56,950 bases of DNA, taken from NCBI GenBank assembly GCA_031271975.1, contig JAISUR010000005.1, positions 1 through 56,950 on the forward strand, written 5' to 3'. The notes beneath the pieces are model-generated. The model was not told where the DNA came from, did not search any database, and saw nothing but the letters and a program-made list of their open reading frames with translations. The stretch comes from Propionibacteriaceae bacterium. GTDB lineage: Bacteria; Actinomycetota; Actinomycetes; Propionibacteriales; Propionibacteriaceae. Shown in pieces: positions 9,662 through 24,636 of the stretch. Position 1 is the stretch's first letter, and the number at the start of each line of letters is the position of its first letter. Both the position numbers and the translations under genes were made by a program.

Positions 9662-10849
9662 ATGGCCATAAATCGCGTGCCGCCGGGCTCGCAGAGTTCA
9701 CTCCGAGAAGCTAATCGTGCCCGAATAGTGGACACAATCAAGCGGCTCGGTGCCCTGACCCAGGTGGAATTGGCTGACGCGACAGGGTTGTCGACGGCCA
9801 CGGTCTCCATCATCGTCAACGAGCTGGTCGCGGCGGGTATCGTCGCTACGACCCAGGTCACCCGCTCCGGACGCCGCGCCATTCAGGTGACGCTCTCGCG
9901 CGGCTTGGGCCTGGTAGCGGGCATCCACTTCTCGACGCGGGCGCTCAAGGTCGTTTTGGCCGATCCGACGACGGTGGTCGCGTCCCAGCGGCTCCCGCTG
10001 CCTGCCGAACACCGCCACGACACCGGCATGGACCGCGCCGCTGAGTTGATCGCCGAAATGCTGGCATCCATCGGCGCCCCGCAATCCGAATTGCTCGGCG
10101 CGGGCCTGGGCATCTGCTCGCCCTACAACCCGTCCACCGACATGCTCGCCGTGCCCGGACTGCTGCGCGGCTGGGACGAGGTGCGCATCGCCGAATCCAT
10201 GTCCCGGCGGCTCGGCAAACCAGTGGCCGTGGACAACGACGCGAATCTCGGGATGCTCGGCGAATCCCGCTACGGCGCCGCTCGCAACGCCCAATCGGGC
10301 GTGTTCGTCTCCATTGGACACGGCATCGGCGCGGGCATCCTCTACAACGGCGAAATCATGCGCGGCCACGATGGCACCGCCGGTGAGATCGGACATGTCC
10401 GCGTGGTTGAGAACGGCGCGCTGTGCCACTGCGGCAACCGCGGCTGTCTGGAAGTGATGGTCAACTCCAGCGCCATAGTCTCGTCGCTGCGGAATGCGGT
10501 CGGCAATGTGACCCTGCGCGATGTGATCGCGATGGCCCGCCAAGGGGATCTGGGTTGTTCGCGGGTCATCAGCGATGCCGCCCACTACGTGGGCACAGCG
10601 CTCGCCTCGGTCTGCAACCTCGTCAACCCGGAGATCGTGATCATAGGCGGCGAGCTGGCCGACGCCGGCCCGATCCTGATCGCGCCGTTGGAGGCTTCGC
10701 TGGAACGCAACTCGTTGCACAACCCGCTGCATCCGCCGCGCGTCGAGGTCAGCGACTTGGGAGAAGACGCCTCGGTGCTGGGGGCGGCCGCGTTCGCTTT
10801 TGACTCCGTCGCCATCCCGGTCGGCGGGACGCTGGAGGCTTTGGCATGA
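9662..10849 (+). CDS. ROK-family transcriptional regulator
   Basis: This protein has 395 residues. An N-terminal winged helix-turn-helix (about 12-75; TQVELADATGLSTATVSIIVNEL) precedes a ROK sugar-kinase-like domain. That domain has the VDNDANLGMLGE acidic motif and the ROK zinc signature CHCGNRGCLEV. The glycine-rich phosphate loop typical of active kinases is not obvious, so it is likely a sensor rather than an enzyme. ROK repressors typically respond to sugars or sugar phosphates. The divergent position makes the chvE-mmsA-mmsB operon the obvious target. Its stop overlaps the next ATPase gene (ATGA, 10846-10849). Confidence 0.9.
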   Translation: MAINRVPPGSQSSLREANRARIVDTIKRLGALTQVELADATGLSTATVSIIVNELVAAGIVATTQVTRSGRRAIQVTLSRGLGLVAGIHFSTRALKVVLADPTTVVASQRLPLPAEHRHDTGMDRAAELIAEMLASIGAPQSELLGAGLGICSPYNPSTDMLAVPGLLRGWDEVRIAESMSRRLGKPVAVDNDANLGMLGESRYGAARNAQSGVFVSIGHGIGAGILYNGEIMRGHDGTAGEIGHVRVVENGALCHCGNRGCLEVMVNSSAIVSSLRNAVGNVTLRDVIAMARQGDLGCSRVISDAAHYVGTALASVCNLVNPEIVIIGGELADAGPILIAPLEASLERNSLHNPLHPPRVEVSDLGEDASVLGAAAFAFDSVAIPVGGTLEALA

Positions 10850-11760
10850 TTTCGCTGGTCCGCGACGTCCCCCCGCAGCCGACCACGCGGCAGCCGATCT
10901 TGGCGATGCGTTCAGTCTCGCGGCGTTTCGGCTCCGTCCAGGCCCTCGACCAGGTGGACTTCGACATCTTCCCGCGCGAGATTGTGGCGGTGGTCGGCGA
11001 CAATGCCGCGGGCAAGTCAGTGCTCGCGAAGATGATCGCGGGCGTCTATCCGCCTGATTCGGGCGTCATTTACTGGGATGGGGTGCCCACAAACATCCCG
11101 AACCCGTCGGCGGCGCAGGATCTGGGGATCGCGACCGTTTTCCAGGAGTTGGCGCTCTGCGACAACATGACCATCGTCCAGAACCTGTTTCTGGGCCGGG
11201 AACTGAGCCGTTCGCTCGCCATTCGCGACAACTATATGGAAGAGGTCGCGCGCAACGTTTTCGCGGAGTTGGGCGCCAAGATGCCCCCGGTGCGCACGCC
11301 GGTCGCGGGTTTATCCGCGGGCCAGCGCCAGACCACGGCGATCGCCCGGGCAATGTTGGGTTCGCCGCGCGTGGTGGTGATGGACGAGCCGACGAGTTCG
11401 CTGTCGGTCACCCAGACCGCCGAGGTGCTCAACCTCATCGAACGTCTGCGCGACCTCGGCTACGGCATCATGTTCATCTCGCACACCATGTCGGACGTGC
11501 AGGCCGTGGCCGACCGCATCGTCGTCATGCGCCACGGCCGGATCAACGGTGAAGGGCTCATGGCCGAAGTGACCTACGAGGACATCATCGCGGCGATCAC
11601 CGGCGTGCCCAACGAGTTGACCCGAGCCACCAAAGCCCGCGGCCCCTTGCCGGCGCCCGTCGAGTTGACCACGCTGAACGCCCGGCTGCCCCTGCCCGAC
11701 CGGCTGCACACCAGCCAGCGGCAGGAGTTGCTTCACGACGGCACATACGACCGGCGCTGA
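10846..11760 (+). CDS. Orphan single-domain sugar-type ABC ATPase
   Basis: This protein of 304 residues has one nucleotide-binding domain (about 20-250) and a basic Pro-rich tail of some 45 residues. It resembles FrcA-type ATPases (VVGDNAAGKSVLAKMIAGVYPPDSG). The Walker A reads GDNAAGKS where GxNGAGKS is usual, and the signature is LSAGQRQ instead of LSGGQ. Walker B (VVVMDEPTSSLS) and the H-loop (FISHTM) are intact. No permease or binding protein is adjacent, and the gene is translationally coupled to the ROK gene. It may serve the mmsB permease as an alternative ATPase, or a distant permease, or have a regulatory role; none of these is shown. Confidence 0.85.
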   Translation: MISLVRDVPPQPTTRQPILAMRSVSRRFGSVQALDQVDFDIFPREIVAVVGDNAAGKSVLAKMIAGVYPPDSGVIYWDGVPTNIPNPSAAQDLGIATVFQELALCDNMTIVQNLFLGRELSRSLAIRDNYMEEVARNVFAELGAKMPPVRTPVAGLSAGQRQTTAIARAMLGSPRVVVMDEPTSSLSVTQTAEVLNLIERLRDLGYGIMFISHTMSDVQAVADRIVVMRHGRINGEGLMAEVTYEDIIAAITGVPNELTRATKARGPLPAPVELTTLNARLPLPDRLHTSQRQELLHDGTYDRR

Positions 11761-11784
11761 GGTCACCGGGCCAAGCGAAGCCGA

Positions 11785-11790
11785 TAGCAT
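11785..11790 (+). promoter_or_regulatory. Putative -10 element of the DUF917 gene
   Basis: TAGCAT followed by six bases and the ATG at 11797, with no Shine-Dalgarno. The identical TAGCAT-N6-ATG arrangement occurs at the PucR gene (14395). Confidence 0.5.
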
Positions 11791-11796
11791 GGGCCC

Positions 11797-12852
11797 ATGT
11801 GGACTCTCGGGGTCGAGGCGCTGGCCCAAATGGCCCTCGGTTCGCGGCTGTTCGGCGGCGGTGGCGGCGGAGACACGCTTGGCGCCCGCTTGGTCGCCCA
11901 TCAAGCGCTGGAGGACTGCGGCCAGGTGCGGGTGCTGCGCCCTGACGAGTTGGACCCGGACGCGCTGGTGGCCGGCGTCGTCGTCATCGGCACTCCGACG
12001 GTCTTGGTCGAAAAGCTTCCCTCGACAGACCAGCTCGCAGCGGTGGTGCGTGCCGAGGAGGCCAGGCTGGGACAGAAAATCGAAGCCTTGATCCCGGTCG
12101 TGATCGGCGGTATGGAACTGTTCTACCCAATTGCCGCCGCGGCGGCGCTCCACCTGCCCTGCTTGGACGCCGACGGTATGGGCCGCACGCTGCCGGTCAT
12201 TTCCATGACGACGTTCACGCTTGCCGGGGTGAACGTCGCCCCGCTGTGCTCCGCCGACGCCAAGGGCAACGTCATCTCGCTGGACACCGCCGACAACCGG
12301 CTCGCTGGCGCCATCGCCCGGCTGTCCGCCATGACCTTGGGCATGGCCAACGCGTGCGTGTGTTATCCGATGAGCGCGGCGACGGCTTGCCAGGTGTCGA
12401 TTCCCGGTTCGCTGACCCGCTGCCTCGAATTCGGCGGGTTGTTGGCGCAGGCGCAAGCGCAAGGCACTTTGGAGCCGGTGCTCGGCGCGTGCGGGGGCCG
12501 CGAACTGGGCGACGGCGTGGTGATCGCCGTGGACCGCAAGACCACATTCGGTTTCCCGAAGGGCTCGGTCACGTTGGAGTTGTTCGGCGGACAAGGCACG
12601 ATGCGGGTGGAGATGCAGAACGAGTTCCTGGTCGCCATCGTCGACGGGGAAGTGGTGGCCACGGTGCCTGATCTCATCAGTATCTTCGACATCAACGATC
12701 TGGAGCCGCTCTATACGGACGAGATTCAGGAAGGTCAGCGGGTGCGGGTGGCGGTCATGCCCTGTGCCCCGCAGTGGCGGCAACCTGGCATGGCTGACCT
12801 TGTCGGCCCGGCGGCTTTCGGTTACCACGTGGACCCGGTGGGGCAAGCATGA
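11797..12852 (+). CDS. DUF917 / S-Me-THD family protein
   Basis: This protein has 351 residues. Conserved DUF917 features are visible: LFGGGGGGDT near the N-terminus, the central IGTPTVLVEKLPS and ALIPVVIGGMELFYPIAAAAALHLPCLDADGMGR. A C-terminal beta-rich part ends in EGQRVRVAVMPCAPQWR. As I recall, Pfam now names the family S-Me-THD after S-methyl-thiohydantoin desulfurase activity, releasing the sulfur substituent to give a hydantoin. Members otherwise are known mainly as neighbours of hydantoinase/oxoprolinase genes. Here the gene overlaps the following hydantoinase-like gene by 4 bases (ATGA), indicating a joint function. The exact substrate is unknown. Confidence 0.85.
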   Translation: MWTLGVEALAQMALGSRLFGGGGGGDTLGARLVAHQALEDCGQVRVLRPDELDPDALVAGVVVIGTPTVLVEKLPSTDQLAAVVRAEEARLGQKIEALIPVVIGGMELFYPIAAAAALHLPCLDADGMGRTLPVISMTTFTLAGVNVAPLCSADAKGNVISLDTADNRLAGAIARLSAMTLGMANACVCYPMSAATACQVSIPGSLTRCLEFGGLLAQAQAQGTLEPVLGACGGRELGDGVVIAVDRKTTFGFPKGSVTLELFGGQGTMRVEMQNEFLVAIVDGEVVATVPDLISIFDINDLEPLYTDEIQEGQRVRVAVMPCAPQWRQPGMADLVGPAAFGYHVDPVGQA

Positions 12853-14387
12853 GCATTCGAATCGGCATCGACGTGGGGGGCACCAGCACCGACGCCGTCG
12901 CCGTGGACGCCGCCGACCGGCTGGTCGCCCATGCCAAGGCGGCCACCAGCCCGGAACCTTTCGACGGAATCGCGCAGGCCCTGGACGCGGTGTTGGCACA
13001 GGTCGACGCGTCCGAGGTCACCCACGCGATGCTGGGCACCACACACCTGACGAATGCGCTGCTGGAGCGCCGTTCGCTGTCCCGGGTGGGGGTCTTGCGG
13101 CTCTCGGCGCCCGCGGCCACCCAACCCCGTCCGGGAACCGGGTGGCCGCCCGAATTGGCCGCTGTCATAGGTCCGGTGGCGGTGGTGGGCGGCGGCTGCG
13201 AATACGACGGTTCGCTGATCGCCGAGTTGGACGAGAAGGCCGTGCGGACGTTCGCCGAATCCTGCGTCGGCAAGGTGGGCGCAGTGTCCGTGACGGGAGT
13301 GTTTTCGGCGGCGCATCCCGCACAAGAGACGCGCGCCGCCCAGATTGTTTCCGAAATCGTGGGCGTTCCCGTGTCGGAGAGCCACGTCGTGGGCGGGTTG
13401 AGCTTGATCCCGCGCGAGAACGCCACCATTCTCAACGCCGCCATCATCTCGGTGGCCCGCAATGTCATTGACGGTTTTCACCAGGCATTGCACGCCCGCG
13501 GGCTCAGTGTCGAGTCCTATCTCACGCAGAATGACGGAACCTTGATGGCCGCGGAAGCCGCCATCAGGTTCCCGCTGCTGACGGTCAACGCCGCCATGGC
13601 CAACTCCATGCGCGGCGCGAGCCGCCTTTCGGGGCTGGACGACGCGTTGGTGATCGACGTCGGCGGCACGACCGCGGACATGGGTTTGCTGGTGGACGGT
13701 TTCCCCAAGCAGCGGGTTCGCGGCACGGAGGTAGCCGGTATTCCCACTAATTTCCCGACCCCGCAGATCAGTTCCTTCGCGTTCGGCGGCGGTACGTTGG
13801 TCAAGACCAGTCCCGCCTTGGCGGTGGGACCGCAGTCGGTGGGCTACCGGGTCACGCAAGACGCGTTGATCGGCGGCGGCAGCCGGCTCACCTTGTCGGA
13901 TGTGTCGGCGGCGGCTGGCCGGGACGTGGGTTTCGGCGATGCGGCGCTGTCCGCCCAGATTCCCGCCGCGTTGGTGTCCGAGGCCATGGGCTGGGTGGAC
14001 CAGCAAGTGCGCCGCCTCGTCGAACGGCACCAAGTGCCGCAGGGCGGGTTGCCGCTGTTGGCGGTGGGCGGCGGGGCGCATCTGGTCGGGTCGGACATAC
14101 CGGGCGTCAGCCAAGTGATCCGCCCACCGCACAGCGCCCTGGCCAACGCGTATGGGGCCGCGATCGCGGAAGTCTCCGGTTCGGTCGACCGCGTCTACAA
14201 CTACGACCGCTTTGGGCGCGAGCACTGCTTGGACGCGGCGCAGGAGGCGGCTGTCGACGCCGCGATCCAGGCCGGGGCCAAACGCGGCCATGTGCGGGTC
14301 GCCGCCATCAAAGAAGTGCCGCTGACCTATGTGACCGGCCAGACCTGCCGCGTGCAAGTCAAGGCCACCGGCCCGTTGCGGGCCTGA
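12849..14387 (+). CDS. Short hydantoinase/oxoprolinase-family ATPase
   Basis: This protein has 512 residues, shorter than classical HyuA (about 680). It starts with the phosphate motif IGIDVGGTSTDAV of the hydantoinase/oxoprolinase N-terminal domain and has GTTHLTNALLER. A second actin-like motif, VIDVGGTTADMGLLVDG (about residue 273), and GGGTLVKTSPALAVGPQSVGYR follow. The family couples ATP hydrolysis to ring opening of hydantoins, 5-oxoproline or lactams. The long C-terminal region of HyuA is missing. This short form is the one usually paired with DUF917, to which it is translationally coupled here. Confidence 0.88.
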   Translation: MSIRIGIDVGGTSTDAVAVDAADRLVAHAKAATSPEPFDGIAQALDAVLAQVDASEVTHAMLGTTHLTNALLERRSLSRVGVLRLSAPAATQPRPGTGWPPELAAVIGPVAVVGGGCEYDGSLIAELDEKAVRTFAESCVGKVGAVSVTGVFSAAHPAQETRAAQIVSEIVGVPVSESHVVGGLSLIPRENATILNAAIISVARNVIDGFHQALHARGLSVESYLTQNDGTLMAAEAAIRFPLLTVNAAMANSMRGASRLSGLDDALVIDVGGTTADMGLLVDGFPKQRVRGTEVAGIPTNFPTPQISSFAFGGGTLVKTSPALAVGPQSVGYRVTQDALIGGGSRLTLSDVSAAAGRDVGFGDAALSAQIPAALVSEAMGWVDQQVRRLVERHQVPQGGLPLLAVGGGAHLVGSDIPGVSQVIRPPHSALANAYGAAIAEVSGSVDRVYNYDRFGREHCLDAAQEAAVDAAIQAGAKRGHVRVAAIKEVPLTYVTGQTCRVQVKATGPLRA

Positions 14388-14394
14388 GGGAGGA

Positions 14395-14400
14395 TAGCAT
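14395..14400 (+). promoter_or_regulatory. Putative -10 element of the PucR-type regulator gene
   Basis: TAGCAT then six bases then the ATG at 14407. A GGGAGGA lies just before it, but too far from the start (about 13 nt) for a good ribosome binding site. The regulator may have its own leaderless promoter inside the cluster. Confidence 0.45.
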
Positions 14401-14406
14401 CGCGCC

Positions 14407-15981
14407 ATGGCTGGTCAATGGGTGCTGGATGGGACCGCTACGGTCCGCCAAGTGTTAGCCCTGGGTCCGCTGCTCCCAGCCAAACTGCTCGCCGGCGAAG
14501 CCGCCCTGGATCGGCCGGTTTCGAAAGTGCGCCCGCTTCCCAGGCGCCGTGAGGCCAGCGGCGAATACCGCGATACCGCCATCGTCGCGGACGGGGCTGA
14601 CTTCGCCGAAAACGACTACCTCATCGACTTGGCCTTGCGCTGGATGGGCGAAGAAGGCGCGCCGCTGTTGGTGTTGGTCTCCGGCCAGCTCAGCCCCTCG
14701 GTGTCGCCCAGGCGGCTCGCCGACCGGCTGGGCGTCGCCCTGGCGACAGTCGACGGCAGCCTGCTGGAGGTGATCGACGTCGTCCGCGAGTCTGTCGAAG
14801 CTCCCAACCGCCAGGTCGCACAGGTTGTCGTGGAATTGGCGGATCGCTTGGAAAGGCTCGGGAAGGATCAGGGCATCGACAAGGTGTTGGCTTTGGTCGA
14901 CGCGGCTCTCGGCGCCACATCCGTCTTGGTCGACGGCGACGGGCAGGCGGTGGTTGGGCCGGTTTTGCAGCCGCCGGTCACATCGCAGGCGCTGCAGGGA
15001 CAGCCGGTGTACGACAGCCGCCGTGAGTTTGCGCGGCTGACGTCGCCCATCTGGGTGGCCGGAGAACATGCCAGGTATTGGCTCGTCATCCAGTTGCCGT
15101 CGCCGACGCCGGCCGGGCGGCAAGCCATCACCCGCGTGGCCCAGTTGGCAGGGGGCCAAGTGGCGGTGCGACTCGCCTCCGAACTGCTGCGGCGAGAACG
15201 GCAGTCGCGGGCGGCGTTCGGGGTCCTGGAAACCATACTCTCTCTGGCGGACGTGCCTGACGCCGCGTTGTTGCGGCAGATTGACGCCTTGGGTTGGCGG
15301 GTGGATGGCTGGTGCGGGGCGGTCCAAGTGCGGGCGGAGGACGCCGACCCGGCCACGGTGATGTCGTGGACCCAGCCGCTGCGGGCTCGTCTCACCGAGG
15401 CCGGACTGCGCGGCCCGCTGGTGGAGCGTCCCGATGGCTGGGTTTGGTGGGAGACGCGGGACTTGGCCCGCGAGCCCGCTGATGTGGACACGTTGGCCAA
15501 TCGTTGGCGCTCCGCGCTGGCGGGTTTCCAGAGCGCCCGGCCTGGCCTGCGCATGCAGGTCGGCTTGGGCTGTGCCTACCCGCACCTTGAAGGGTTGCGC
15601 AAGTCGCTGTCCGAAGCCGCGGACGCCGCCCTGATCGCCCAAACCGACGGCGGAGAATTGACGCTGCGCTACTACGGCGACTTGGGCATTCAACGCCTGC
15701 TCGCCCGGTTCATCACGACCGCTGAATTCCTCGACTTCGCGGGGATCTTGCTGCGCCCGGTGCTCGAATCGCGGCATTCGGGGGAGCTGCTGGAGACGTT
15801 GGAGGCGTTTCTGGATTGCGAATCGTCGGTCACCTCGACGGCCGAAGCGTTGGACCTGCATCGCAATACCGTCATGCGGCGGGTCGCCCGGCTCAAGGAG
15901 TTGCTCGGCGCGGAGTTGGACGACCCGGACGGCAGGCTCGCACTGCAGCTCGCTTGTCGAGTGGTCAATCTGAACACCTAG
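14407..15981 (+). CDS. PucR-family transcriptional regulator
   Basis: This protein has 524 residues. The N-terminal PucR sensor-like domain (about 10-130; TVRQVLALGPLLPAKLLAGEAALDRPVSKV) is followed by a GGDEF-like/CdaR middle region. The C-terminal PucR helix-turn-helix (about 460-520) reads SVTSTAEALDLHRNTVMRRVARLKELLG. Characterised members control purine, allantoin and related nitrogen catabolism, often as activators responding to a pathway intermediate. Lying between the DUF917/hydantoinase pair and the ABC-hyuAB genes, it most likely regulates both sides. The downstream 168-bp spacer is the best place for its operator. Confidence 0.9.
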   Translation: MAGQWVLDGTATVRQVLALGPLLPAKLLAGEAALDRPVSKVRPLPRRREASGEYRDTAIVADGADFAENDYLIDLALRWMGEEGAPLLVLVSGQLSPSVSPRRLADRLGVALATVDGSLLEVIDVVRESVEAPNRQVAQVVVELADRLERLGKDQGIDKVLALVDAALGATSVLVDGDGQAVVGPVLQPPVTSQALQGQPVYDSRREFARLTSPIWVAGEHARYWLVIQLPSPTPAGRQAITRVAQLAGGQVAVRLASELLRRERQSRAAFGVLETILSLADVPDAALLRQIDALGWRVDGWCGAVQVRAEDADPATVMSWTQPLRARLTEAGLRGPLVERPDGWVWWETRDLAREPADVDTLANRWRSALAGFQSARPGLRMQVGLGCAYPHLEGLRKSLSEAADAALIAQTDGGELTLRYYGDLGIQRLLARFITTAEFLDFAGILLRPVLESRHSGELLETLEAFLDCESSVTSTAEALDLHRNTVMRRVARLKELLGAELDDPDGRLALQLACRVVNLNT

Positions 15982-16084
15982 AGGTGAGCCTGGCCGATCT
16001 GTTCCAGTTTTGGATCAGTTGTGCGACAAGCATGTTACGGCAGGCAGCTTTTGGTTCAATTCGCATAAGCAACGACCAATCAGT

Positions 16085-16097
16085 GTGCAATGTGCAC
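16085..16097 (+). promoter_or_regulatory. Operator candidate upstream of the ribose-type transporter operon
   Basis: A perfect 5-bp inverted repeat, GTGCA-ATG-TGCAC, lies 53 nt before the binding-protein start. A -35-like TTGACG follows at 16100-16105, and a TTGGTT core occurs at 16051-16056. The spacer 15982-16149 is AT-richer than its surroundings. Assignment to PucR rests on position only. Confidence 0.35.
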
Positions 16098-16149
16098 CAT
16101 TGACGTTCTCTACTCTTGTCCCAAACCTGTTTGTCTTGAAGGAGGATAA

Positions 16150-17169
16150 ATGAGGACCGCCAGAATCGCCGCCGCAGCGGCCGTGGCCTCCCTAGCCCTG
16201 TTGGCCAGTTGTACCACTTCGTCCACCACAGCCCCGACCGCCGAAACGACTACTCCAGCCGGCGAGTCGACCGAGAAAATCTCCATCGCCTTCTTCGGCG
16301 CGGCCAAAGCGAATTCCTTCGCGAACGCCGTCTGGGCGGGCATCCAAACCTATGCCGCTGAGATCGGCGCCGACGCCGAGTTCTTCGACGGCGAATTCAA
16401 CGCCGAGAAGCAGGTCCAGCAAGTCCAAGACGCCAACACCTCCGGCAAGTACCAGGTCTATGTGATCGGAGCCAATGACGGCGCCGCACTCATTCCGGCC
16501 GTCGAGCAGGCCGTCTCTCAAGGCATCAAGGTGGTCGCCGCGGACTTCCCCGTCGGCACCGCCTACGACACGTACCAGGCCCAGGTGGAAGGCACCTTCG
16601 CCATCGTGGACGCGCCCACCACCAATGGCGACTATCTCGGCAAGCTCGGCCTGGGCGCCTGTGAGAAGCTGGCCGTCGACCCGTGCCAGGTCGCGTACCT
16701 GCAGGGCAACGCCACGCTGCCGCTGGACAACGCCCGCACCCAGCACGTCGTCGACACGCTGACCGCTGGCGGGATCACCGAGATCTACTCGAATCTGCAG
16801 GGCGGATACACCCAAGACGAGGGCCGCAAGGCCGGGCAGGACTTGCTCCAGGCCCATCCCGACGTGGACGTCATCATCGGCTCCACGCAGGCCATTCTGG
16901 GTGTCGAACCGCTCGTCGACACGTCCAAGGTGATGCTGGTCGGCAACGGCGGCTCGCGCCAGGCCGTGGCTGCCGTGCAAGAGGGCAAGTGGTTCGGCAT
17001 CTACTACTACGACGTTGAAGAGACCGGTTATCTGGCCGCGCAAATGGGCGCGAAGGCTTATTTCGGCGAGACGGTCGAGTCTTCCATCGACATCGCCGGG
17101 CTCGACTCCACGCGCACCTACGGCGACGCCGCGAATCTGGAAGGAATCACCGGCACGTTCGACGACTGA
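16150..17169 (+). CDS. Ribose-type ABC substrate-binding lipoprotein
   Basis: This protein has 339 residues, with a lipoprotein signal ending LLASC (Cys21) and a Thr-rich linker. A periplasmic-binding type I (RbsB-like) fold begins at ISIAFFGAAKANSFANAVWAGIQ. Later features are VIGANDGAALIPAVEQAVSQGIKVVAADFPVG and VDVIIGSTQAILGVEPL. Proteins of this class bind sugars, but also nucleosides, autoinducer-2 and other small polar rings. Its placement with hyuAB and PucR argues for a cyclic nitrogen compound rather than a plain sugar. The start is fixed by a strong AAGGAGGA site 4-5 nt upstream. It heads the operon running to 24636. Confidence 0.88.
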   Translation: MRTARIAAAAAVASLALLASCTTSSTTAPTAETTTPAGESTEKISIAFFGAAKANSFANAVWAGIQTYAAEIGADAEFFDGEFNAEKQVQQVQDANTSGKYQVYVIGANDGAALIPAVEQAVSQGIKVVAADFPVGTAYDTYQAQVEGTFAIVDAPTTNGDYLGKLGLGACEKLAVDPCQVAYLQGNATLPLDNARTQHVVDTLTAGGITEIYSNLQGGYTQDEGRKAGQDLLQAHPDVDVIIGSTQAILGVEPLVDTSKVMLVGNGGSRQAVAAVQEGKWFGIYYYDVEETGYLAAQMGAKAYFGETVESSIDIAGLDSTRTYGDAANLEGITGTFDD

Positions 17170-17177: not shown

Positions 17178-18701
17178 ATGAGTGACACACCGTTCCTGAG
17201 TGTCCGGAGTCTGCGGAAGTCCTACGCCCGCAACGTGGTCTTGCACGATGTGGACTTGGACTTCCGCCCCGGACGCGTCTACGGCCTGCTGGGCGAGAAT
17301 GGCGCCGGCAAGTCGACCCTCGCCAAGATCGTCTCCGGGCTCATCGAAGCCGACTCGGGGACGGTCGAGGTTGAGGGTCAGGCCCGTCATTTCAAAGCCC
17401 CCAAGGACGCTTTGGCGCAAGGGATTTCGATCATCACTCAGGAGCAAACCTTGGCGTTGGACCGCTCCGCCGCGGAAAATGTCTTTTCCGGCAATCTTCC
17501 GCAGCGGGCGGGCTTCGTCAAGGAAAAGGAACTGCGCGGCGAGTTCGCCCGAGTTGCCGGCAAGCTGGGATTCTCCGACATCGCGGCTGCGACCGTCGTC
17601 AAGACGCTTTCGATAGCGAAACGCCAACAGGTGGAAATCATGCGGGCGCTGGCTCGCGGCTCGCGCCTGATCATCATGGACGAGCCAACCGCGATCTTGT
17701 CCACGGTCGAAACCCAGCAACTGCTGCAACTGATCCGCCGCCTCGCCGACGAAGGCCTGGTCATCCTGCTCATCTCGCACTTCTTGGAGGACGTGCTCTC
17801 GGTGGCCGACGACGTGGTGGTGCTCCGCGACGGCGCGGTAACGTACTTCGGCCCGGCGACAGGGCAAACGCCCCGCTCGTTGACGGAGCATATGGTCGGC
17901 CGGGTCATCGATTTTGAGCACCAGCGGCCCGCCCCGCTGTCAGAGCATGCTCCCGTGCGCCTCCGGGTTGAAGGCTTACGGCGGGCGGATGGGATCGGCC
18001 CAGTGTCTCTGACGATCCGGGCTGGGGAGATCGTTGGCATGGCCGGGTTGATCGGCTCTGGGCGCACCGAGGTGGCGCGCGCCATCTTCGGAGCCGATCC
18101 GAAGGTGGCCGGCACGGTGACGGTGGACGACGTGGAGATCGCCCACGCGTCGCCCCGCGTCAGCGTGCGCCATGGCCTGGGCATGGTGTGCGAGAACCGC
18201 AAAGAGCAGGGGCTTTCCCTGATCCACTCCATCCGCGACAACGATTCGATTGTGGTGCGCGACCGGTTCGCGCGGTTCGGTTTCCGGACGGTGCGGGCCG
18301 AGAAGGCCGCCGTGCGCGCGGTAGTGGAACGCACGGACGTCAAGTGCCGCTCTATGGAGCAGCCGATCTGGCAGCTTTCGGGCGGCAACCAGCAGAAGGT
18401 GCTCTTCGCCAAGTGGATGATGGCGGAGCCCAAAGTGCTGATCGTGGACGAGCCCACCCGCGGCGTGGACGTGGGCGCCAAGGCGCAGATCTACGACATC
18501 ATCGCCGACTTGGCCGCCCAAGGGGTGGCGATTCTGATCATCTCATCCGAGATCGAGGAGGTGATGGGCCTGTCCCATCGCCTGTTGGTCATGCGCCGCG
18601 GGCAGTTGGTGCGGGAGTTCGCCTGGGGTGAGGCGAGCCGGGCCGAAGTCATCGCGGCTGCGTTCGGAGACTACGACAACGATGGAGGAAGCAATGGCTG
18701 A
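17178..18701 (+). CDS. Ribose-type ABC transporter ATPase, two nucleotide-binding domains
   Basis: This protein has 507 residues. NBD1 has [10 protein letters not shown], a divergent signature LSIAKRQQVEIMRAL and LIIMDEPTAILS. NBD2 has AGLIGSGRTE, the ENRKEQG motif, [14 protein letters not shown] and VLIVDEPTRGVDVGAK. This is the RbsA/XylG architecture with a degenerate second Walker A. It begins 8 nt after the binding-protein stop with little Shine-Dalgarno, so it probably depends on coupled translation. Its 3' end overlaps the permease start by 8 bases. Confidence 0.92.
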   Translation: MSDTPFLSVRSLRKSYARNVVLHDVDLDFRPGRVYGLLGENGAGKSTLAKIVSGLIEADSGTVEVEGQARHFKAPKDALAQGISIITQEQTLALDRSAAENVFSGNLPQRAGFVKEKELRGEFARVAGKLGFSDIAAATVVKTLSIAKRQQVEIMRALARGSRLIIMDEPTAILSTVETQQLLQLIRRLADEGLVILLISHFLEDVLSVADDVVVLRDGAVTYFGPATGQTPRSLTEHMVGRVIDFEHQRPAPLSEHAPVRLRVEGLRRADGIGPVSLTIRAGEIVGMAGLIGSGRTEVARAIFGADPKVAGTVTVDDVEIAHASPRVSVRHGLGMVCENRKEQGLSLIHSIRDNDSIVVRDRFARFGFRTVRAEKAAVRAVVERTDVKCRSMEQPIWQLSGGNQQKVLFAKWMMAEPKVLIVDEPTRGVDVGAKAQIYDIIADLAAQGVAILIISSEIEEVMGLSHRLLVMRRGQLVREFAWGEASRAEVIAAAFGDYDNDGGSNG

Positions 18702-19644
18702 GCACAAAGGCCTGTTGCGGCAGCGGTCCAGGGATTTCGGCATCGTGTTCGCCGCGGTGGTGCTGGTGGTGGTGCTCTCGTTGAGCACGAGCACGTTCCT
18801 CTCCGTGGCGAACATGGTCAACCTGCTCGACCAGATCATCGTGGTTGGGATCTTGGCGTGCGCCGTCACCGTCCCAATGATCGCAGGCGTGTTCGACCTC
18901 TCGATGAGCGCGATCGCGGCGTTGAGCGCCATCATCGCCATCCACACGATCAACGCTTTTGGCTTGCCGGCGGGGTTGTTGGCTTCGGTCGGCACGGGCG
19001 CGCTGCTCGGACTGTTCAACGGCGTGATGGTCACCTACGCGCGGGTCAATTCGTTTATCGCCACGCTCGCCTCGTCGATGGTGTTCGTGGGCCTGGCCAC
19101 CGTCATCACGGATGGGCAGATCGTCAAGTCCGACGACGCTTCGCTGCAACTGCTCTCGCGGCCATCGGGCTTCCTCGGCATCACTTGGGGTACCTACGTC
19201 TTCATCGCGATCGCCATCCTCACCGGCATTTTGATTGCGAAAACCATCTACGGCCGCGCCTTGTACGCCGTCGGCGGCAACGCGGCGGCCGCAACCCTGT
19301 CCGGCATTTCGGTCGTCCGCACGCACATCACCGCTTTCATGATTTCCGGTGCGCTGTCAGCTGTCGCCGGATTGGTGCTGGCGTCACGCGCGTTGTCTGC
19401 CCAACCTGCGACTGGCCAGGGGTTGGAATTCACCGCTATCGCCGCCGCGGTGATCGGCGGGGTCTCGCTCAACGGCGGCGCCGGCGCCATCTGGCGTTCC
19501 GTGCTGGGTGTCTTCTTGTTGCAGTTGATCGGCAATGGCTTCAACCTGCTGGGCGCGCCCACTATCTTCCAGAAAGTGGTGCAAGGGGCGTTGATCCTCT
19601 TCGCCGTGTCCCTCGACCAGTTCTTGCGGGCCCGCGACACGTAG
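18694..19644 (+). CDS. Ribose-type ABC transporter permease
   Basis: This 316-residue BPD_transp_2-family permease has eight to ten membrane segments. It carries the family loop AVTVPMIAGVFDLSMSAIAALSAI, a variant of the usual GGIDLSVGS. The C-terminal block EFTAIAAAVIGGVSLNGGAGAIWRSVLG is also typical. The start is placed at MAEHKGLL because GGAGGA lies 4-5 nt before that ATG. It completes the importer formed with the two preceding genes. Confidence 0.9.
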   Translation: MAEHKGLLRQRSRDFGIVFAAVVLVVVLSLSTSTFLSVANMVNLLDQIIVVGILACAVTVPMIAGVFDLSMSAIAALSAIIAIHTINAFGLPAGLLASVGTGALLGLFNGVMVTYARVNSFIATLASSMVFVGLATVITDGQIVKSDDASLQLLSRPSGFLGITWGTYVFIAIAILTGILIAKTIYGRALYAVGGNAAAATLSGISVVRTHITAFMISGALSAVAGLVLASRALSAQPATGQGLEFTAIAAAVIGGVSLNGGAGAIWRSVLGVFLLQLIGNGFNLLGAPTIFQKVVQGALILFAVSLDQFLRARDT

Positions 19645-19686
19645 CCGCTGGCTTCAGCAACCCACCCGCTCCAAGAAAGGAAACAC

Positions 19687-21738
19687 ATGTCATCCGGATA
19701 CCGCATCGCCATTGATGTGGGAGGCACCTTCACCGACGTCGTGCGCCTCGACCCGCAATCGGGGATGCTTCGGTTCGAGAAAGTGCCCACCACCCCTTCC
19801 GCACCCACGCAAGGCGTCTTGGCGGCCTTCGTCAAGGCTGAGGCACCCTTGGACGCGGTGGACACGTTCAACCACGGCACCACACTGGGCCTCAACGCGC
19901 TGCTCACACGGACGGGCGCGCGGCTGGCGATCGTGAGCACCAAGGGATTCCGCGACGTCTACCTGCTCGGCCGCACCGATCGCAGCCAGAGCTACAACTT
20001 CTGGTATCGCAAACCCGCCCCGTTGGTGGAGCGCGCCGACACGTTCGAGGTCGACGAGCGTTCCCACTTCGATGGCACGGTGTCCCGCGAGTTGGATCTT
20101 GCCGACGCCCGCGCGGTGGCCGCACGCATCGCGGCTGGTGGCTACGACTCGGTGGCGGTGGCCTTCCTGCATTCCTATGCGAATCCGGACAACGAGCGCC
20201 GCATGCGCGATGTGCTGGCCGAAGTGGCTCCCGGCGTGGCGGTCACGCTTTCGTCGGATCTGTCCCGCGAGTACCGCGAGTACGAGCGCACGTCGACGGC
20301 GGTGTTGGACGCCTACATCAAACCGATTATCCGCAACTACTTGGTGGAATTGGGGCAGCGCCTGGACGGCGGCGGATTCGCCGGCAGTTTCCTGATTTCC
20401 CGGTCGGGCGGCGGTGCCATGACGGCCGCGTCCGCCAAGGAACAGCCCGCCAACTTGATTCTGTCCGGCCCGGCGGGCGGCGTGATCGGCGCCGCCGGTT
20501 TTTCGAAGCTGATCGGCCAGCCCAATCTGATCACCATCGACATGGGCGGCACCAGTTTGGACGCGTCGCTGGTGCTTGACCACAAGCCGTTGTTGCATCA
20601 GGGCGCCACTTTCGAAGGGCTGCCGATCAACATCACGTCGCTGAACATCCACACCATCGGGGCCGGCGGCGGGTCGATCGCCTGGCTGGACGAGGGTGGC
20701 GCGTTGCAGGTCGGCCCGCAGAGCGCCGGGGCGGATCCCGGGCCGGCGGCGTACGGCCTGGGCGGGCAGGCTCCCACTTTCACCGACGCGGCGCTCGCGG
20801 TCGGATATCTCGGCTCCGACACCCCGTTGGGAGGCAGCTTGCGGCTCGATGACGGGTTGGCGACGGCGGCGCTCGCCCCGCTCGCGGAGCAGTTGGGCAT
20901 GAGCGTGCGAGAGTTGGCGCTTGGGGTGCTGGCGATCTCCGCTTCCAAGATCATGGGCGCGGTGCGCGGCATCACGGTCGAGATCGGACTGGATCCGCAG
21001 GACTTCGCACTACTCGCCTTTGGCGGCGGCGGTGGGTTGACCGCAGTGGATGTGGCTCGCGAATTGGGTATCCCGAAGGTCATCATCCCGCCTGGTCAGG
21101 GCGCGTTTTCGGCGTTGGGCATGCTCATGGCGGACGTGGAGCACGACTATGCCCGCACCACAGTCGGGTCCTTGGACGGGATCGACACCGAGCAGGTTGA
21201 GCAGACCTATTTGGGCATTGAGGAAGAGGCCCGGGCCACGCTGCTGGAAGAGGGGTTCCCCGTCGAGCAGCAGTTGCTGGTCCGTTCCTTGGATGTGCGC
21301 TACACGGGCCAAGAGCACTCGGTTTCTGTTCCGGCTCCGGCGACCGGCCCGGATTTTGCCGCCGAAGTCACGCTGGCGTTCACCGAGTTGCACTTGCGCC
21401 AGTATGGCCACACGCAGCAAGTGCCGGTGGAGATCACCACGTTCCGGCTGCGGGCCGTGGGTGTGGTGGACAAACCCGAGATCCCGCTGGCGCCCAAACG
21501 CACGGAGGGCTCCGCGGCGCCGTTTGGCACTCGCGGCGTGCTGCGTCCAGACGGCGGTGTCGCCGAATATGGGCTGTATTCGCGCGAATCGCTGCTGGCC
21601 GGAGACCGTATCGCCGGGCCTGCGGTGGTGGTGGAACACACCGCGACGACGGTGATGCACGCCGGCGAAACGTTGACCGTCGGCGACTACGGCGAACTGA
21701 CAATCGACATCGCAGGACAGGAGGCTGGCAATGAATAG
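19687..21738 (+). CDS. hyuA: Hydantoinase/oxoprolinase subunit A (HyuA)
   Basis: This full-length HyuA-type ATPase has 683 residues. The N-terminus reads YRIAIDVGGTFTDVV, followed by FNHGTTLGLNALLTRTGAR and FRDVYLLGR. The central metal/ATP region reads NLITIDMGGTSLDASLV, with GAGGGSIAWLDEGGALQVGPQSAGADPGPAAYG. A C-terminal beta-rich domain follows. With HyuB it forms enzymes that open cyclic amides in an ATP-dependent way (N-methylhydantoin, hydantoins, 5-oxoproline, caprolactam) or, in related forms, carboxylate ketones. The start follows an AAAGGAAAC site. The stop overlaps hyuB by 8 bases. Confidence 0.92.
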   Translation: MSSGYRIAIDVGGTFTDVVRLDPQSGMLRFEKVPTTPSAPTQGVLAAFVKAEAPLDAVDTFNHGTTLGLNALLTRTGARLAIVSTKGFRDVYLLGRTDRSQSYNFWYRKPAPLVERADTFEVDERSHFDGTVSRELDLADARAVAARIAAGGYDSVAVAFLHSYANPDNERRMRDVLAEVAPGVAVTLSSDLSREYREYERTSTAVLDAYIKPIIRNYLVELGQRLDGGGFAGSFLISRSGGGAMTAASAKEQPANLILSGPAGGVIGAAGFSKLIGQPNLITIDMGGTSLDASLVLDHKPLLHQGATFEGLPINITSLNIHTIGAGGGSIAWLDEGGALQVGPQSAGADPGPAAYGLGGQAPTFTDAALAVGYLGSDTPLGGSLRLDDGLATAALAPLAEQLGMSVRELALGVLAISASKIMGAVRGITVEIGLDPQDFALLAFGGGGGLTAVDVARELGIPKVIIPPGQGAFSALGMLMADVEHDYARTTVGSLDGIDTEQVEQTYLGIEEEARATLLEEGFPVEQQLLVRSLDVRYTGQEHSVSVPAPATGPDFAAEVTLAFTELHLRQYGHTQQVPVEITTFRLRAVGVVDKPEIPLAPKRTEGSAAPFGTRGVLRPDGGVAEYGLYSRESLLAGDRIAGPAVVVEHTATTVMHAGETLTVGDYGELTIDIAGQEAGNE

Positions 21739-23446
21739 CGCGATCACGAACGAGGTAATCCGGCACGCGCTGCTCTCGGCGGCCGACGAGATGGCCCGGA
21801 ATTTGTGCCGCACCGCGTACAACACGGTTGTCTACGAGATCCACGATTACGGCATCGGCGTCCACGACGTGCGCGGCGACGTGGTGGCGGATTCGCCCGG
21901 CATCGCCGTGTTCACCAGGGGCAACGACTATGGGATCAAGAAGGTCGTCGAGTTCTTGGGCCCAGATGCGATGGGGCCGGGCGACATCTTCATGCTCAAC
22001 TATCCCTATTGGGCTTCGGCGCATTCGCTGGACGTGCTCGTTTTCGGGCCGATCCACGACGCGGACAAACAGTTGATCGGCTACGCGTCTTGCCGCGTGC
22101 ACGTCGTCGACTTGATGGCCAAGAGCGCGGGCTATGTGCTGGATTCGGTGGACATGTACGAGGAGGGCATCTTTTTTCCCGGTGTGCGGATTTACCGCGG
22201 GGGAGAGCCTTGCGAGGACATCTTCAACATCGTGCGTTTCAACTCGCGGATTCCGGACAAGACGATCGGGGATATCCAAGCGCAGGCCTCGGCCGTGTTC
22301 GCGGGCGTGCGGCGGGTGTCGGCCATCGCGGAAAAGCACGGCTCAGCGGCGCTGCTGGAGGCCATGGACGCCATTTCGGCGCACGGCGAGCGGCTGGCCC
22401 GGATGGGGTTGGCGAAGCTGCCGAAGGGCACTTGGACCGGTGTGGATTACGTCGACCACGACGGCATGAACTTGGACACGCTGATCAAGCTGCAAGCCAC
22501 GGTCACCATCACTGACGACGAGTTCATCGTGGATTGGCGCGGGTCGGCCGAGAATGTGCCCGGCCCGATCAACCTGCCTTTTGGCGAGACCCAAGCCATC
22601 ACGTCGTTGGTGTTCAAGGGCCTGACCACGCCTGATACTCCCGTTGTCGCGGGGAACTTCGCCCCGCTGAAGATTCTCACCACCGAAGGCTCGGTCATGC
22701 ACGCTGTTCCGCCCATGCCGACGTTCACGCTGTGGACGGGGCTGATCGCCCCAGAGGTCATTTTGAAGGCGTTGGCGCAGGGCATGCCGGAGCTGATCCC
22801 GGCGTGTTCTGGCGGCGATGTGGGTTCGATGATGGGCTTGGGCATCAATCCGCGCAGCGGCGACCATTGGCTGGAGGCCACCAATGAGGCGGTCGGCTTT
22901 GGCGGCCACGCGCGCGGCGACGGCGAGGACGGCATCATGCACCTGTCCGAGCCGGGTTGCCGGAACAATCCGGTGGAGGTGCTGGAGACGAAGGCCCCGA
23001 TGCTGATCGACCACTATGGTTTCCGCCCGGATTCCTGCGGCGCGGGCAAGTATCGCGGCGGTGTCGGGGTGAGCCGGACGTACCGCTTCACGGCGCCTTC
23101 GACGGCGATCTGCCTGGTATTCAAGACGAAGACCGCGCCGTGGGGTGTCGCCGGCGGTAAGGAAGCCCGGCCCAACCGCATGACCATCCACCGCGCCGAC
23201 GGGGAGGTTTTCGATTCGAGCGGCAAATACAACTCGGTGCAGGCCGGGGATGTGCTGGTCAACGACATGGGCGGCGGCGGTGGCTACGGCGACCCGTTCG
23301 AGCGCGAGCCCGCCGCGGTCGCCAAGGATGTCCGCAACGGCTACATTGGCGTGGAAACCGCGCTGAAGGACTACGGCGTGGCGGTCGACCCGGAGACGTT
23401 CGCAGTCGACGAGGTCGCCACCCGCAACCTGCGCGCGTCCGCCTAG
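21731..23446 (+). CDS. hyuB: Hydantoinase B/oxoprolinase subunit (HyuB)
   Basis: This protein has 571 residues and is typical of HyuB. The N-terminal segment is ITNEVIRHALLSAADEMARNLCRTAYNTVVYEIHDYGIGVHD. The family block GDIFMLNYPYWASAHSLDVLVFGPIH follows. GAGKYRGGVGVSRTYRF and the GDVLVNDMGGGGGYGDPFER tail are diagnostic. It is the partner of HyuA and is translated from an ATG inside the hyuA stop region. Substrate specificity within the family cannot be read from sequence alone. Confidence 0.92.
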   Translation: MNSAITNEVIRHALLSAADEMARNLCRTAYNTVVYEIHDYGIGVHDVRGDVVADSPGIAVFTRGNDYGIKKVVEFLGPDAMGPGDIFMLNYPYWASAHSLDVLVFGPIHDADKQLIGYASCRVHVVDLMAKSAGYVLDSVDMYEEGIFFPGVRIYRGGEPCEDIFNIVRFNSRIPDKTIGDIQAQASAVFAGVRRVSAIAEKHGSAALLEAMDAISAHGERLARMGLAKLPKGTWTGVDYVDHDGMNLDTLIKLQATVTITDDEFIVDWRGSAENVPGPINLPFGETQAITSLVFKGLTTPDTPVVAGNFAPLKILTTEGSVMHAVPPMPTFTLWTGLIAPEVILKALAQGMPELIPACSGGDVGSMMGLGINPRSGDHWLEATNEAVGFGGHARGDGEDGIMHLSEPGCRNNPVEVLETKAPMLIDHYGFRPDSCGAGKYRGGVGVSRTYRFTAPSTAICLVFKTKTAPWGVAGGKEARPNRMTIHRADGEVFDSSGKYNSVQAGDVLVNDMGGGGGYGDPFEREPAAVAKDVRNGYIGVETALKDYGVAVDPETFAVDEVATRNLRASA

Positions 23447-23454
23447 GAGGGCAT

Positions 23455-24636
23455 ATGTCTGAATTGTTGGTGGCCAACGCACGGGTTTTCGGTGCGGGCA
23501 AAGAACCGGTCAACGTGTACGCGCGTGACGGCGTGGTCGTGTCGGTCGGGGGAGAGGTTCCCAGTTCGGCTCCGGTGTTGGACGCTTGGGGCGGCACCCT
23601 CATTCCGGGCCTACTCGACGCCCACTGCCACGCCTACGGCTCGTCGATGAGCCTGGAGGAACTGGAAAAGTCGCCGATGAGCTGGATCGCCCTGAAAGCC
23701 GCCCAGCGGTTGAGCCGGGCGCTGTCGCGTGGCTTCACGACGGTCCGCGATGTGGCCGGCGGCGACCCGGGTTTGGCGAAGGCGATCGCCTGCGGGCTGT
23801 TCCCGGCTCCGCGCTATCTCTACACTGGCCCAGCGTTGAGCCAAACGGGCGGCCACGGCGACGGCCGGCATCCGCTCTATGACGACCCGCCCTATTGCGG
23901 CTGCAACACGAACGTGGTGGACGGCGTGGACGCGATGCGCGTGCGGGTGCGCGAGCTGCTGTCCAAAGGCGCCCACGCCATCAAACTGCTCACTTCGGGC
24001 GGCGTCATCTCGCCGACGGATCCGATCGAGGTGCCGCAGTATTCGGCCGCCGAGATCCAGGTTGCCGCGGAGGAGGCCGAGCGCCGCGGCACGTATGTCA
24101 CGGCCCACGCCTATTCGCCGCGCGCGATCACCCATTCGGTCAAGAACGGCGTGCGCTGCATCGAACACGGCAATCTGCTGGACGCGCCCACAGCCGCCCT
24201 GATGGCCGAGACCGGTACGTACTTGGTGCCGACCCTGGCCGCCTACGACGCCATGGACCGCCGCGGCGACGACGTCGGCCTGACCCCGGTCGGCCGGGAG
24301 AAGAACACGCAGGTTCTGGTGGCCGGCCAGGAAGCGATCCGGCTGGCTCGCGCCGCGGGCGTTCGGATTGGCTTCGGCACCGACCTGATGGGCGATCTGG
24401 AAGACGAACAACTCCAAGGCCTGCGCCTGCAGGCCGAAGTGGAAGGCCTGGAACGCACTCTGGAAGCCGCCACCGTCACCAACGCCGCCTTGATGGGCCT
24501 GACGAACGTCGGCCGCGTCGAACCCGGCTACGCAGCCGACATGGTCATCTTCCGAGGCGACCTGGCCAAGGATCCCGAACTCCTGTGGAACGGCGCCCGG
24601 ACGGTAATCCAAGCCGGGCAAGTCGTAGTGGCATAG
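23455..24636 (+). CDS. Metal-dependent amidohydrolase (imidazolonepropionase/prolidase-like)
   Basis: This amidohydrolase-superfamily TIM barrel has 393 residues. DAHCHAYG supplies the HxH metal ligands at about residue 58. IKLLTSGG gives the candidate carbamylated lysine, and TAHAYS and CIEHGNLL give the later histidines. GFGTDLMGD gives the catalytic aspartate. The family includes imidazolonepropionase-like enzymes and Xaa-Pro or Xaa-Arg dipeptidases. The start follows GGAGGGCAT, 8 nt after the hyuB stop, so it is in the same operon. It could cleave the N-carbamoyl or amide product of HyuAB or an upstream conjugate; this is inference. Confidence 0.88.
   Translation: MSELLVANARVFGAGKEPVNVYARDGVVVSVGGEVPSSAPVLDAWGGTLIPGLLDAHCHAYGSSMSLEELEKSPMSWIALKAAQRLSRALSRGFTTVRDVAGGDPGLAKAIACGLFPAPRYLYTGPALSQTGGHGDGRHPLYDDPPYCGCNTNVVDGVDAMRVRVRELLSKGAHAIKLLTSGGVISPTDPIEVPQYSAAEIQVAAEEAERRGTYVTAHAYSPRAITHSVKNGVRCIEHGNLLDAPTAALMAETGTYLVPTLAAYDAMDRRGDDVGLTPVGREKNTQVLVAGQEAIRLARAAGVRIGFGTDLMGDLEDEQLQGLRLQAEVEGLERTLEAATVTNAALMGLTNVGRVEPGYAADMVIFRGDLAKDPELLWNGARTVIQAGQVVVA

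Follow-up and report, generated by a model that had tools for sequence, protein, structure and literature searches.

A ribose-type importer linked to an ATP-dependent lactamase and a prolidase-like amidohydrolase in a Propionibacteriaceae bacterium: a candidate catabolic unit for proline-containing cyclic dipeptides

According to a 2013 study, cyclic dipeptides are abundant and stable towards peptidases, the enzymes that hydrolyse diketopiperazines remained unclear at that time, and cyclo(L-Pro-L-Tyr) was degraded by none of the study's strains (PMC3852281). A paper on caprolactamase raises the possibility that some genes with an oxoprolinase annotation encode hydrolases of cyclic dipeptides (PMC6061476). 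Another work defines ATP-dependent lactamases by the motifs DxGGTxTD and DxGGT (PMC8453981). Here we describe a gene cluster of a Propionibacteriaceae bacterium (assembly GCA_031271975.1) in a 56,950-nucleotide (nt) stretch of contig JAISUR010000005.1 (positions 1 to 56,950; hereafter the window). Its core, at positions 16150–24636, encodes a ribose-type importer, the two subunits of an ATP-dependent lactamase (HyuA and HyuB, together HyuAB) and an amidohydrolase. Judging from the gene context, this core probably serves the breakdown of a cyclic amide; the likeliest is a 2,5-diketopiperazine that contains proline or hydroxyproline (Hyp), a reading to which we give a probability of roughly 0.56. 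The reading builds on observed gene content, conservation, physical linkage and motifs, and this class of ligand is favoured because an ATP-dependent lactamase acting together with a prolidase accounts for the facts with the fewest assumptions. The protein families involved are known; as far as we searched, their combination and proposed role are new, and we found no description of a HyuAB cyclic-dipeptide hydrolase, or of a pathway with this gene set, among the open-access papers that our searches listed.

Open reading frame (ORF) and Pfam annotation of the window recovered every gene that an earlier, sequence-only reading of this DNA had named, from a ROK-family regulator to the amidohydrolase, at the same positions on the + strand. 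The core opens with a type-I substrate-binding protein that has a lipobox-like N terminus (16150–17169; Peripla_BP_4), followed after 8 nt by an RbsA-type double ATPase (17178–18701; two stretches of ABC_tran) and an RbsC-type permease (18694–19644; BPD_transp_2). The ORF of the permease opens at 18628 and its probable start is the ATG at 18694, after the GGAGGAAGC stretch, in which case the two genes overlap by 8 nt. HyuA, the ATP-binding subunit (19687–21738; three Pfam domains; motifs DVGGTFTD and DMGGTSLD), begins 42 nt further on and overlaps by 8 nt with HyuB, the hydrolysing subunit (21731–23446; a full-length Hydantoinase_B domain with the unusual motif LNYPYWASAHSLD), which is separated by another 8 nt from the amidohydrolase (23455–24636; Amidohydro_1), a member of a prolidase-like group and a predicted Xaa-Pro(Hyp) dipeptidase. 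Upstream of the binding protein, a gap of 168 nt leaves room for a promoter and is preceded by a DUF917/S-Me-THD-like protein (11797–12852; S-Me-THD_N and S-Me-THD_C), a short HyuA of 512 amino acids (aa) (12849–14387; Hydant_A_N and Hydantoinase_A; with both phosphate-binding motifs typical of ATP-dependent lactamases, DVGGTSTD and DVGGTTAD) and a PucR/CdaR-type transcriptional regulator (14407–15981; HTH_30 and GGDEF_2). The DUF917 gene starts 36 nt after an ATPase gene discussed below and overlaps the short HyuA by 4 nt, and 19 nt separate the latter from PucR. The single orientation claimed by the sequence-only reading therefore stands, but its spacing of "overlaps or 8-nt gaps" is true of only part of the run, which also contains gaps of 168, 42, 36 and 19 nt.

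The association between importer and Hyu enzymes was examined from both ends. A 13-row profile of the binding protein matched 8 of 394 class genomes and 13 of 293 order genomes at an E value of 1e-40 (the window's own genome counted in both); the profile searches score only the top-ranked candidates of each genome, and these and the following profile counts are lower bounds. The case set consisted of 20 loci outside the own genome, from 19 genomes, annotated by tblastn. Hyu genes (HyuA, HyuB or short HyuA) are present in 16 of them and in none of 40 control neighbourhoods, which surround RbsA-type ATPases from 14 genomes (the own and 13 of the 19), taken as the next 40 in score order once the loci of the system itself, GguA of the window and a single match ~27 kb from a system locus had been excluded. 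Mean neighbourhood length was 18.6 kb for cases and 18.0 kb for controls, contig ends cutting some of each, and the case loci that lack Hyu genes are L065 and the three weakest matches (L076, L077 and L078). The references for HyuA, HyuB, short HyuA, DUF917, PucR and the amidohydrolase were derived from the window; at the same threshold, no control neighbourhood matched Hyu, DUF917, PucR, M19, proline-racemase or amidohydrolase references. In the reverse direction, HyuB-anchored searches found orthologues in 4 of 394 class genomes at E 1e-200 (the own and three others) and in 6 of 186 order genomes at E 1e-180 (the own and five others), and all eight non-own orthologues sit 0.4–2.8 kb from a binding-protein gene. 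Within the class set, the overlap of the three HyuB genomes with the seven binding-protein genomes among 393 gives a hypergeometric p of 3.5e-6, adjacency uncounted, which serves as a guide and not as a strict probability in view of the close relatives among the genomes. The proposal that a ribose-type importer is tied to ATP-dependent opening of cyclic amides is thus borne out in both directions. That an ordinary sugar importer came by chance to lie beside unrelated Hyu genes would suit the ribose-binding fold of the binding protein, yet is extremely improbable given these counts and the distance of the protein from the sugar equivalogs (~32 bits against cut-offs of 337–342).

Two further surveys covered plasmids and genome contigs. 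Of eight plasmid records that matched, five were examined (all but H4, H6 and H7) and four of these carry Hyu genes; the H1 (Nonomuraea) plasmid, whose stretch is unannotated, gave no Hyu match by tblastn. A scan of genome contigs yielded 13 loci, with Hyu genes detected by tblastn in four (L041, L044, L045 and L047) and none detected by the same means in L042, L043, L046 and the remote L048–L052 (26–28% identity); the stretch of L040 ends at the binding protein. As a separate observation, L075 contains two hyuB-hyuA-binding-protein units ~10.7 kb apart (419–5228 and 11166–15978) with near-equal identities to the window.

Relatives of the importer, HyuAB, amidohydrolase, DUF917 and PucR occur together in four loci spanning three lineages: L045 (Paractinoplanes deccanensis), L059, L067 and L068; L069 holds the full set minus the amidohydrolase. 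The genes thus do co-occur in other genomes, contrary to what would have refuted the sequence-only reading. Since the set recurs, the arrangement in the window is no isolated case, although no second locus with precisely its composition was found. The DUF917 and PucR proteins of the full-set loci are only 25–30% identical to those of the window, the PucR match in L059 is weak (E 6e-11) and the HyuAB of that locus belongs to another clade. Whether the short HyuA is part of the set in L059 and L045 is uncertain, because the gene in its slot has no Pfam match in the former and a weak Hydant_A_N match in the latter.

With the DxGGTxTD and DxGGT motifs in HyuA and a HyuB subunit beside it, the pair falls within the ATP-dependent lactamase family. 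The nearest solved protein to HyuA is the N-methylhydantoinase 7hk5, a closeness of HyuA and HyuB in sequence that gives no substrate, and the NCBIfam equivalog cut-offs for the caprolactamase CapAB are missed by both subunits (455.6/1000 and 214.9/1000 bits). In a tree of 18 HyuA sequences from the loci, that of the window groups in a 9-row clade with a support of 100/100 (L067 stands for L067–L069). The HyuB proteins of this clade carry [LV]N[YH]PYW..AH.LD and EIHDYGI[GS].HD in 8/8 rows, window included, while 9 of 11 other HyuB compared have ND.[YF]...TH..D at the place of the window's unusual motif. An argument that an importer stands beside every other row of the HyuA clade was dropped as circular, the rows having come from importer-anchored loci, and the HyuB-anchored searches described above take its place. 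The importer and amidohydrolase of L041 are 61–72% identical to those of the window and its HyuAB comes from another clade, which is why the two HyuAB clades look exchangeable and may stand in for each other.

Turning to the importer, the type-I binding-protein fold, the double ATPase and the BPD_transp_2 permease place it in the ribose-type (CUT2) class, of which the binding protein would be the specificity component. An AlphaFold model of this protein (mean pLDDT, the model's own confidence score, 86.4) has the fold of ribose-binding protein, which as a prediction indicates the class only; sugar specificity, initially considered on the strength of this fold, was set aside. The named sugar-binding NCBIfam equivalogs are unmatched, the best score being 32.4 bits against cut-offs of 342 (RhaS) and 337 (RbsB). 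In a hand-read alignment, what we take to be the ribose-binding-protein positions F16, R90, F164, N190, D215 and Q235 are A, F, Y, T, G and Y in the window protein, and those presumed to be N13, F15, D89 and R141 are retained. The binding protein is scarce in the family: with the own genome counted, it was found at E 1e-20 in 2 of the 198 genomes. Its orthologue in genome G014 lies at a contig end, and the stretch upstream of it shows no match to cluster genes.

The last gene of the core points to the nature of the product. The best solved relatives of the amidohydrolase are 3mkv (putative amidohydrolase; E 7e-79) and 3feq/3n2c (putative amidohydrolase, prolidase; E 1e-75), with the next of 17 solved matches at E 2e-37 or worse, and this close match, together with candidate metal ligands, places the enzyme in a prolidase-like class. 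We take 3mkv and 3feq/3n2c to be the proteins Sgx9260b and Sgx9260c, of cog1228. The score for the Caulobacter-type Xaa-Pro dipeptidase (NF051886), 201.2 bits, falls short of the cut-off of 500, yet it is the best of 32 NCBIfam matches. Ten other loci have window-like HyuAB (L044, L045, L062, L064 and L066–L071), and in seven of them (L045, L062, L064, L067, L068, L070 and L071) an amidohydrolase lies beside HyuB; none is seen in L066 and L069, and L044 is cut short by the contig end. The HyuAB of L072 and L073 are from another clade, and the binding-protein gene of these two loci is followed by an M24 gene; that of L073 has the Xaa-Pro dipeptidase PepQ as its best NCBIfam match (157.7/630 bits) and that of L072 is 54% identical to it. 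Because two unrelated dipeptidase-like folds share one setting, these neighbourhoods suggest that the product of HyuAB could be an Xaa-Pro dipeptide. Elsewhere in the own genome, a second amidohydrolase of the same group (L027, 12987–14186, contig C9) is 55–57% identical to that of the window, with no other cluster-gene match within 19.9 kb.

The neighbours of the orthologous clusters add proline to this picture. In L062 and L064, whose HyuAB are 63–68% and whose amidohydrolases are 56–59% identical to those of the window, the importer is followed by DAO, FAD oxidoreductase, DapA-family and proline-racemase/4-hydroxyproline-epimerase-like genes (NCBIfam typing of this run was carried out on L062 only, with every match under the cut-off), a make-up that we take to be that of D-hydroxyproline catabolism. 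Beside the amidohydrolase, HyuB and HyuA genes of L070 are a proline-racemase-family gene (above the Pfam cut-off), an aldehyde dehydrogenase, a pyrroline-2-carboxylate-reductase-like gene (155.6/322) and ProC, whose score of 209.1 against 196.75 is the sole NCBIfam pass of the group. Trans-3-hydroxyproline-dehydratase-like genes occur near HyuAB in L056 and L057 (390.1 and 373.5/550 bits), and L055 (Rhodococcus) has proline dehydrogenase and pruA. In a set of 20 genomes, a binding-protein gene is no more than 12 kb away from 5 of the 15 proline-racemase-family genes (0.11 expected; four genomes) and from 3 of the 13 M19 dipeptidase genes (0.07 expected), the Pfam families and the 12-kb distance having been picked after the loci were seen. 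Seven of the 20 case loci carry at least one of the pooled proline and racemase labels, as against two of the 40 controls, both by way of pyrroline-5-carboxylate (P5C) dehydrogenase.

The same neighbourhoods bear on a related explanation, in which HyuAB would open some other proline-related lactam (a 5-oxoproline derivative, a prolyl lactam or an N-acyl-proline-like compound) and the amidohydrolase would trim acyl-proline. Activity of the HyuAB family on 5-oxoproline, caprolactam and hydantoins is on record (PMC8453981), CapA is the top NCBIfam model for HyuA, and papers on N-acyl-amino-acid hydrolases mention cog1228; nevertheless, with peptidase-family genes (M19, M24 and M20) in the same setting pointing to a dipeptide product, we regard this explanation as distinctly unlikely.

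The genes upstream of the core have a distribution of their own. In L054 (Paenarthrobacter plasmid pYJN5-3), L060 (whose contig starts inside the short HyuA), L061 and L063, the order is DUF917, short HyuA, in some cases an NTF2-like gene, M19 dipeptidase, PucR and importer, and best tblastn matches revealed no full HyuAB in the stretches examined. PucR lies upstream of the binding protein in all four, with a racemase gene between the two in L060 and L063, and identities between the window and L054 are 46% for DUF917, 55% for short HyuA and 40% for PucR. DUF917 and its probable partner, the short HyuA, thus belong to a separable unit, which we call module B, and the window can be read as joining a module B head (DUF917, short HyuA and PucR) to a module A body (importer, HyuA, HyuB and amidohydrolase). 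A linear route from the transporter through DUF917/short Hyu to HyuAB and the amidohydrolase, as suggested by the sequence-only reading, becomes doubtful, because the two pairs occur apart in other genomes. The racemase, short HyuA and DUF917 genes precede the importer in L074. An observation in its own right is that L061 carries three tandem DUF917 genes (1279–4627) ahead of the short HyuA.

A possible tie between module B and cyclic dipeptides comes from a different enzyme. A 2024 paper reports that DUF917 and hydantoin-racemase families are over-represented in cyclodipeptide oxidase clusters lacking a synthase, and that peptidase genes are also present there (PMC11055893); its authors read this context as hydantoin/purine metabolism or biosynthesis and not as breakdown. 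In our set the oxidase subunit PF19585 is present in 6 of 394 genomes, and L126 (2003–11486), from the same genome as L064, has PucR, three tandem DUF917 genes and a short HyuA facing genes for an Asp/Glu racemase, a cyclodipeptide-oxidase-like pair (nitroreductase family and PF19585) and an NCS1 permease. This context lends weak support to cyclic dipeptides as substrates of the DUF917 module, though they may also be hydantoins.

The sequence-only reading had favoured a ureide or (thio)hydantoin, which would be imported, opened with ATP to an N-carbamoyl compound and cut by the amidohydrolase. Several features are compatible with such a ligand: the closest solved protein to HyuA and HyuB is an N-methylhydantoinase, the regulators are of the PucR type, Pfam names DUF917 S-Me-THD-like, an Asp/Glu/hydantoin racemase accompanies some module B loci and L126 has the NCS1 permease. 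However, a hydantoin would need an N-carbamoylase and none is present among the Pfam- or NCBIfam-annotated genes of the window cluster (9437–24636), nor did M20 and CN-hydrolase references find a tblastn match in the 20 case loci (where not every gene is annotated and other carbamoylase families were not sought). The window DUF917 lies far under the desulfurase cut-offs (91.0/450 bits for S-methyl-thiohydantoin and 70.7/440 for thiohydantoin), and the prolidase grouping of the amidohydrolase and the proline- and hydroxyproline-like neighbours also argue against it. A PucR-type regulator by itself does not imply purines. The one in the window has HTH_30 and GGDEF_2 but reaches no NCBIfam regulator cut-off, and no ureide enzyme among the cluster genes does so either. 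Taken together, we consider a ureide or hydantoin ligand unlikely.

A number of observations weigh against a proline-containing cyclic dipeptide. The predicted prolidase is the only gene of the window that relates to proline or hydroxyproline, and the window's binding protein shares only ~28–31% identity with those beside hydroxyproline-type genes (45% with that of L067), so that the side chain, or the entire ligand, may differ from that of the hydroxyproline-type loci. The majority of the neighbours owe their names (epimerase, dehydratase, reductase, PepQ, DapA and DAO) to NCBIfam matches below the curated cut-off, P5C dehydrogenase is not enriched (1 of 20 case versus 2 of 40 control loci), and M24 genes near the binding protein number only 2 of 114 in the 20 genomes, which is unremarkable. 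The Asp/Glu/hydantoin-family racemase of L054, L060, L063 and L074 and the NCS1 permease of L126 fit hydantoins equally well, and only one of the six cyclodipeptide-oxidase loci (L126) has a DUF917 block. In L046, where the binding protein is 34% identical, CN-hydrolase, M20, DAO and M24 genes are present but HyuAB is absent, and importers of this family therefore probably differ in what they take up. As to the counts, every enzyme reference not derived from the window originated in a case or sister locus, a bias towards the cases, and the case loci include close relatives (L067–L069; L070 and L071; L062 and L064), so that the case numbers overstate independence. Finally, in the sister genome G006 (L031, 770–3559) recO (65% identical to that of the window), the amidohydrolase (68–75%, depending on the method) and a synthetase gene are contiguous, and the importer and Hyu genes are absent; the amidohydrolase can therefore occur alone, although this genome is 66% complete and the cluster may have been lost or lie elsewhere in it. 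The arrangement in G006 is what would be expected if the amidohydrolase were a resident prolidase of the recO–synthetase region, outside the pathway, beside which the importer and HyuAB had been inserted. In view of the HyuB–amidohydrolase adjacency in the seven loci listed above and the 8-nt gap in the window, we deem this very unlikely.

On balance, we still favour a cyclic dipeptide with proline or hydroxyproline and propose the following route. Uptake of cyclo(Xaa-Pro/Hyp) would fall to the ribose-type binding protein together with the RbsA/RbsC-type pump. HyuA would then phosphorylate the lactam/lactim with ATP and HyuB hydrolyse it to the linear dipeptide, a chemistry proposed for the family and here extended to this putative substrate, after which the amidohydrolase, as its relationship to prolidases suggests, would split the dipeptide into amino acids. 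The second module (DUF917, short HyuA and PucR) would probably serve the HyuB-free opening or conditioning of a related ring, and PucR as the substrate sensor is a guess. It is only tentatively that we combine all of this into a two-module cyclic-dipeptide system, in which the HyuAB clade would be an ATP-dependent cyclo(Xaa-Pro/Hyp) hydrolase feeding the prolidase, DUF917 and short HyuA would open diketopiperazines without HyuB, and the PucR-type regulator would sense the ring. The cluster provides candidates for an importer, a ring opener and a dipeptidase, and relatives of these occur in other actinobacteria. The proposal, if correct, would account for the pairing of a sugar-type importer with Hyu enzymes, provide a substrate class for a clade annotated as hydantoinase and offer a possible route for the use of collagen-derived rings such as cyclo(Pro-Hyp), whose detection in human blood after ingestion of collagen hydrolysate is described in PMC6213548. 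Should the two-module version hold, it would additionally supply genes for diketopiperazine hydrolysis and lead to the reassignment of many DUF917 and "hydantoinase" annotations.

The genes at the upstream edge appear to belong to a different system. The ROK-family regulator (9662–10849, +; Pfam ROK; the frame opens at 9437, with a fitting ATG at 9662 inside it) faces a divergent ChvE-GguA-GguB-like multiple-monosaccharide importer (5463–9443, −) that the sequence-only reading did not mention, of which GguA (823.5 bits against 810) and GguB (474.8 against 450) pass the NCBIfam curated cut-offs and the ChvE-like protein remains below its own (426.6 against 460). The adjoining ATP-binding cassette ATPase (10846–11760, +), with a single nucleotide-binding domain, overlaps the stop of the ROK gene; it is RbsA-like (one stretch of ABC_tran, matching the first half of RbsA/YtfR-type models), its ATPase motifs look intact and it has no permease of its own. 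Since 9 of the 40 control neighbourhoods but none of the 20 case loci have a ROK gene, the pair, which had been counted as a member of the cluster, fits the divergent importer better and probably belongs with it and not with the Hyu system, the role of the ATPase being unclear; the ChvE-GguAB-like importer itself is an ordinary neighbour. Downstream of the cluster, the window also encodes a 512-aa protein with a C-terminal GH-E (HNH/Endo VII) nuclease domain in a polymorphic-toxin-like layout (28657–30195, +), and a single frame of 5480 aa (31722–48164, +), the first 2426 of which contain Big_1 and Invasin_D3 repeats, as in a giant adhesin-like surface protein.

Compared with described systems, the cluster combines familiar parts in a particular way. 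It shares the binding-protein fold, double ATPase and permease of ribose-type importers, but Hyu enzymes stand where sugar genes would be expected. As in other ATP-dependent lactamases (the nearest solved being 7hk5 and 6yra), both subunits are full length and the phosphate-binding motifs of HyuA are kept; in contrast, the window HyuA falls in its separate 9-row clade, in a tree without characterised enzymes, and all eight non-own HyuB orthologues found adjoin a ribose-type importer. The amidohydrolase matches the prolidases 3mkv and 3feq/3n2c over ~354 residues and retains their candidate metal site (HxH, Lys, His, His and Asp) and the SQTGGH and GGV.SPTDP stretches, and differs in that its gene stands with those of HyuAB and an importer in an arrangement resembling an operon. 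In the synthase-free cyclodipeptide oxidase clusters, a cyclic-dipeptide enzyme is similarly accompanied by genes for DUF917 proteins, Asp/Glu/hydantoin racemase, peptidases and transporters (PMC11055893), and L126 displays the same PucR-DUF917-short Hyu block as the window, which itself is without the oxidase. Finally, HyuA and HyuB recall the hydantoin utilisation genes HyuABC of Pseudomonas NS671 (PMC8453981), but among the annotated genes of the window cluster the place of a HyuC-type N-carbamoylase is taken by a prolidase-like enzyme.

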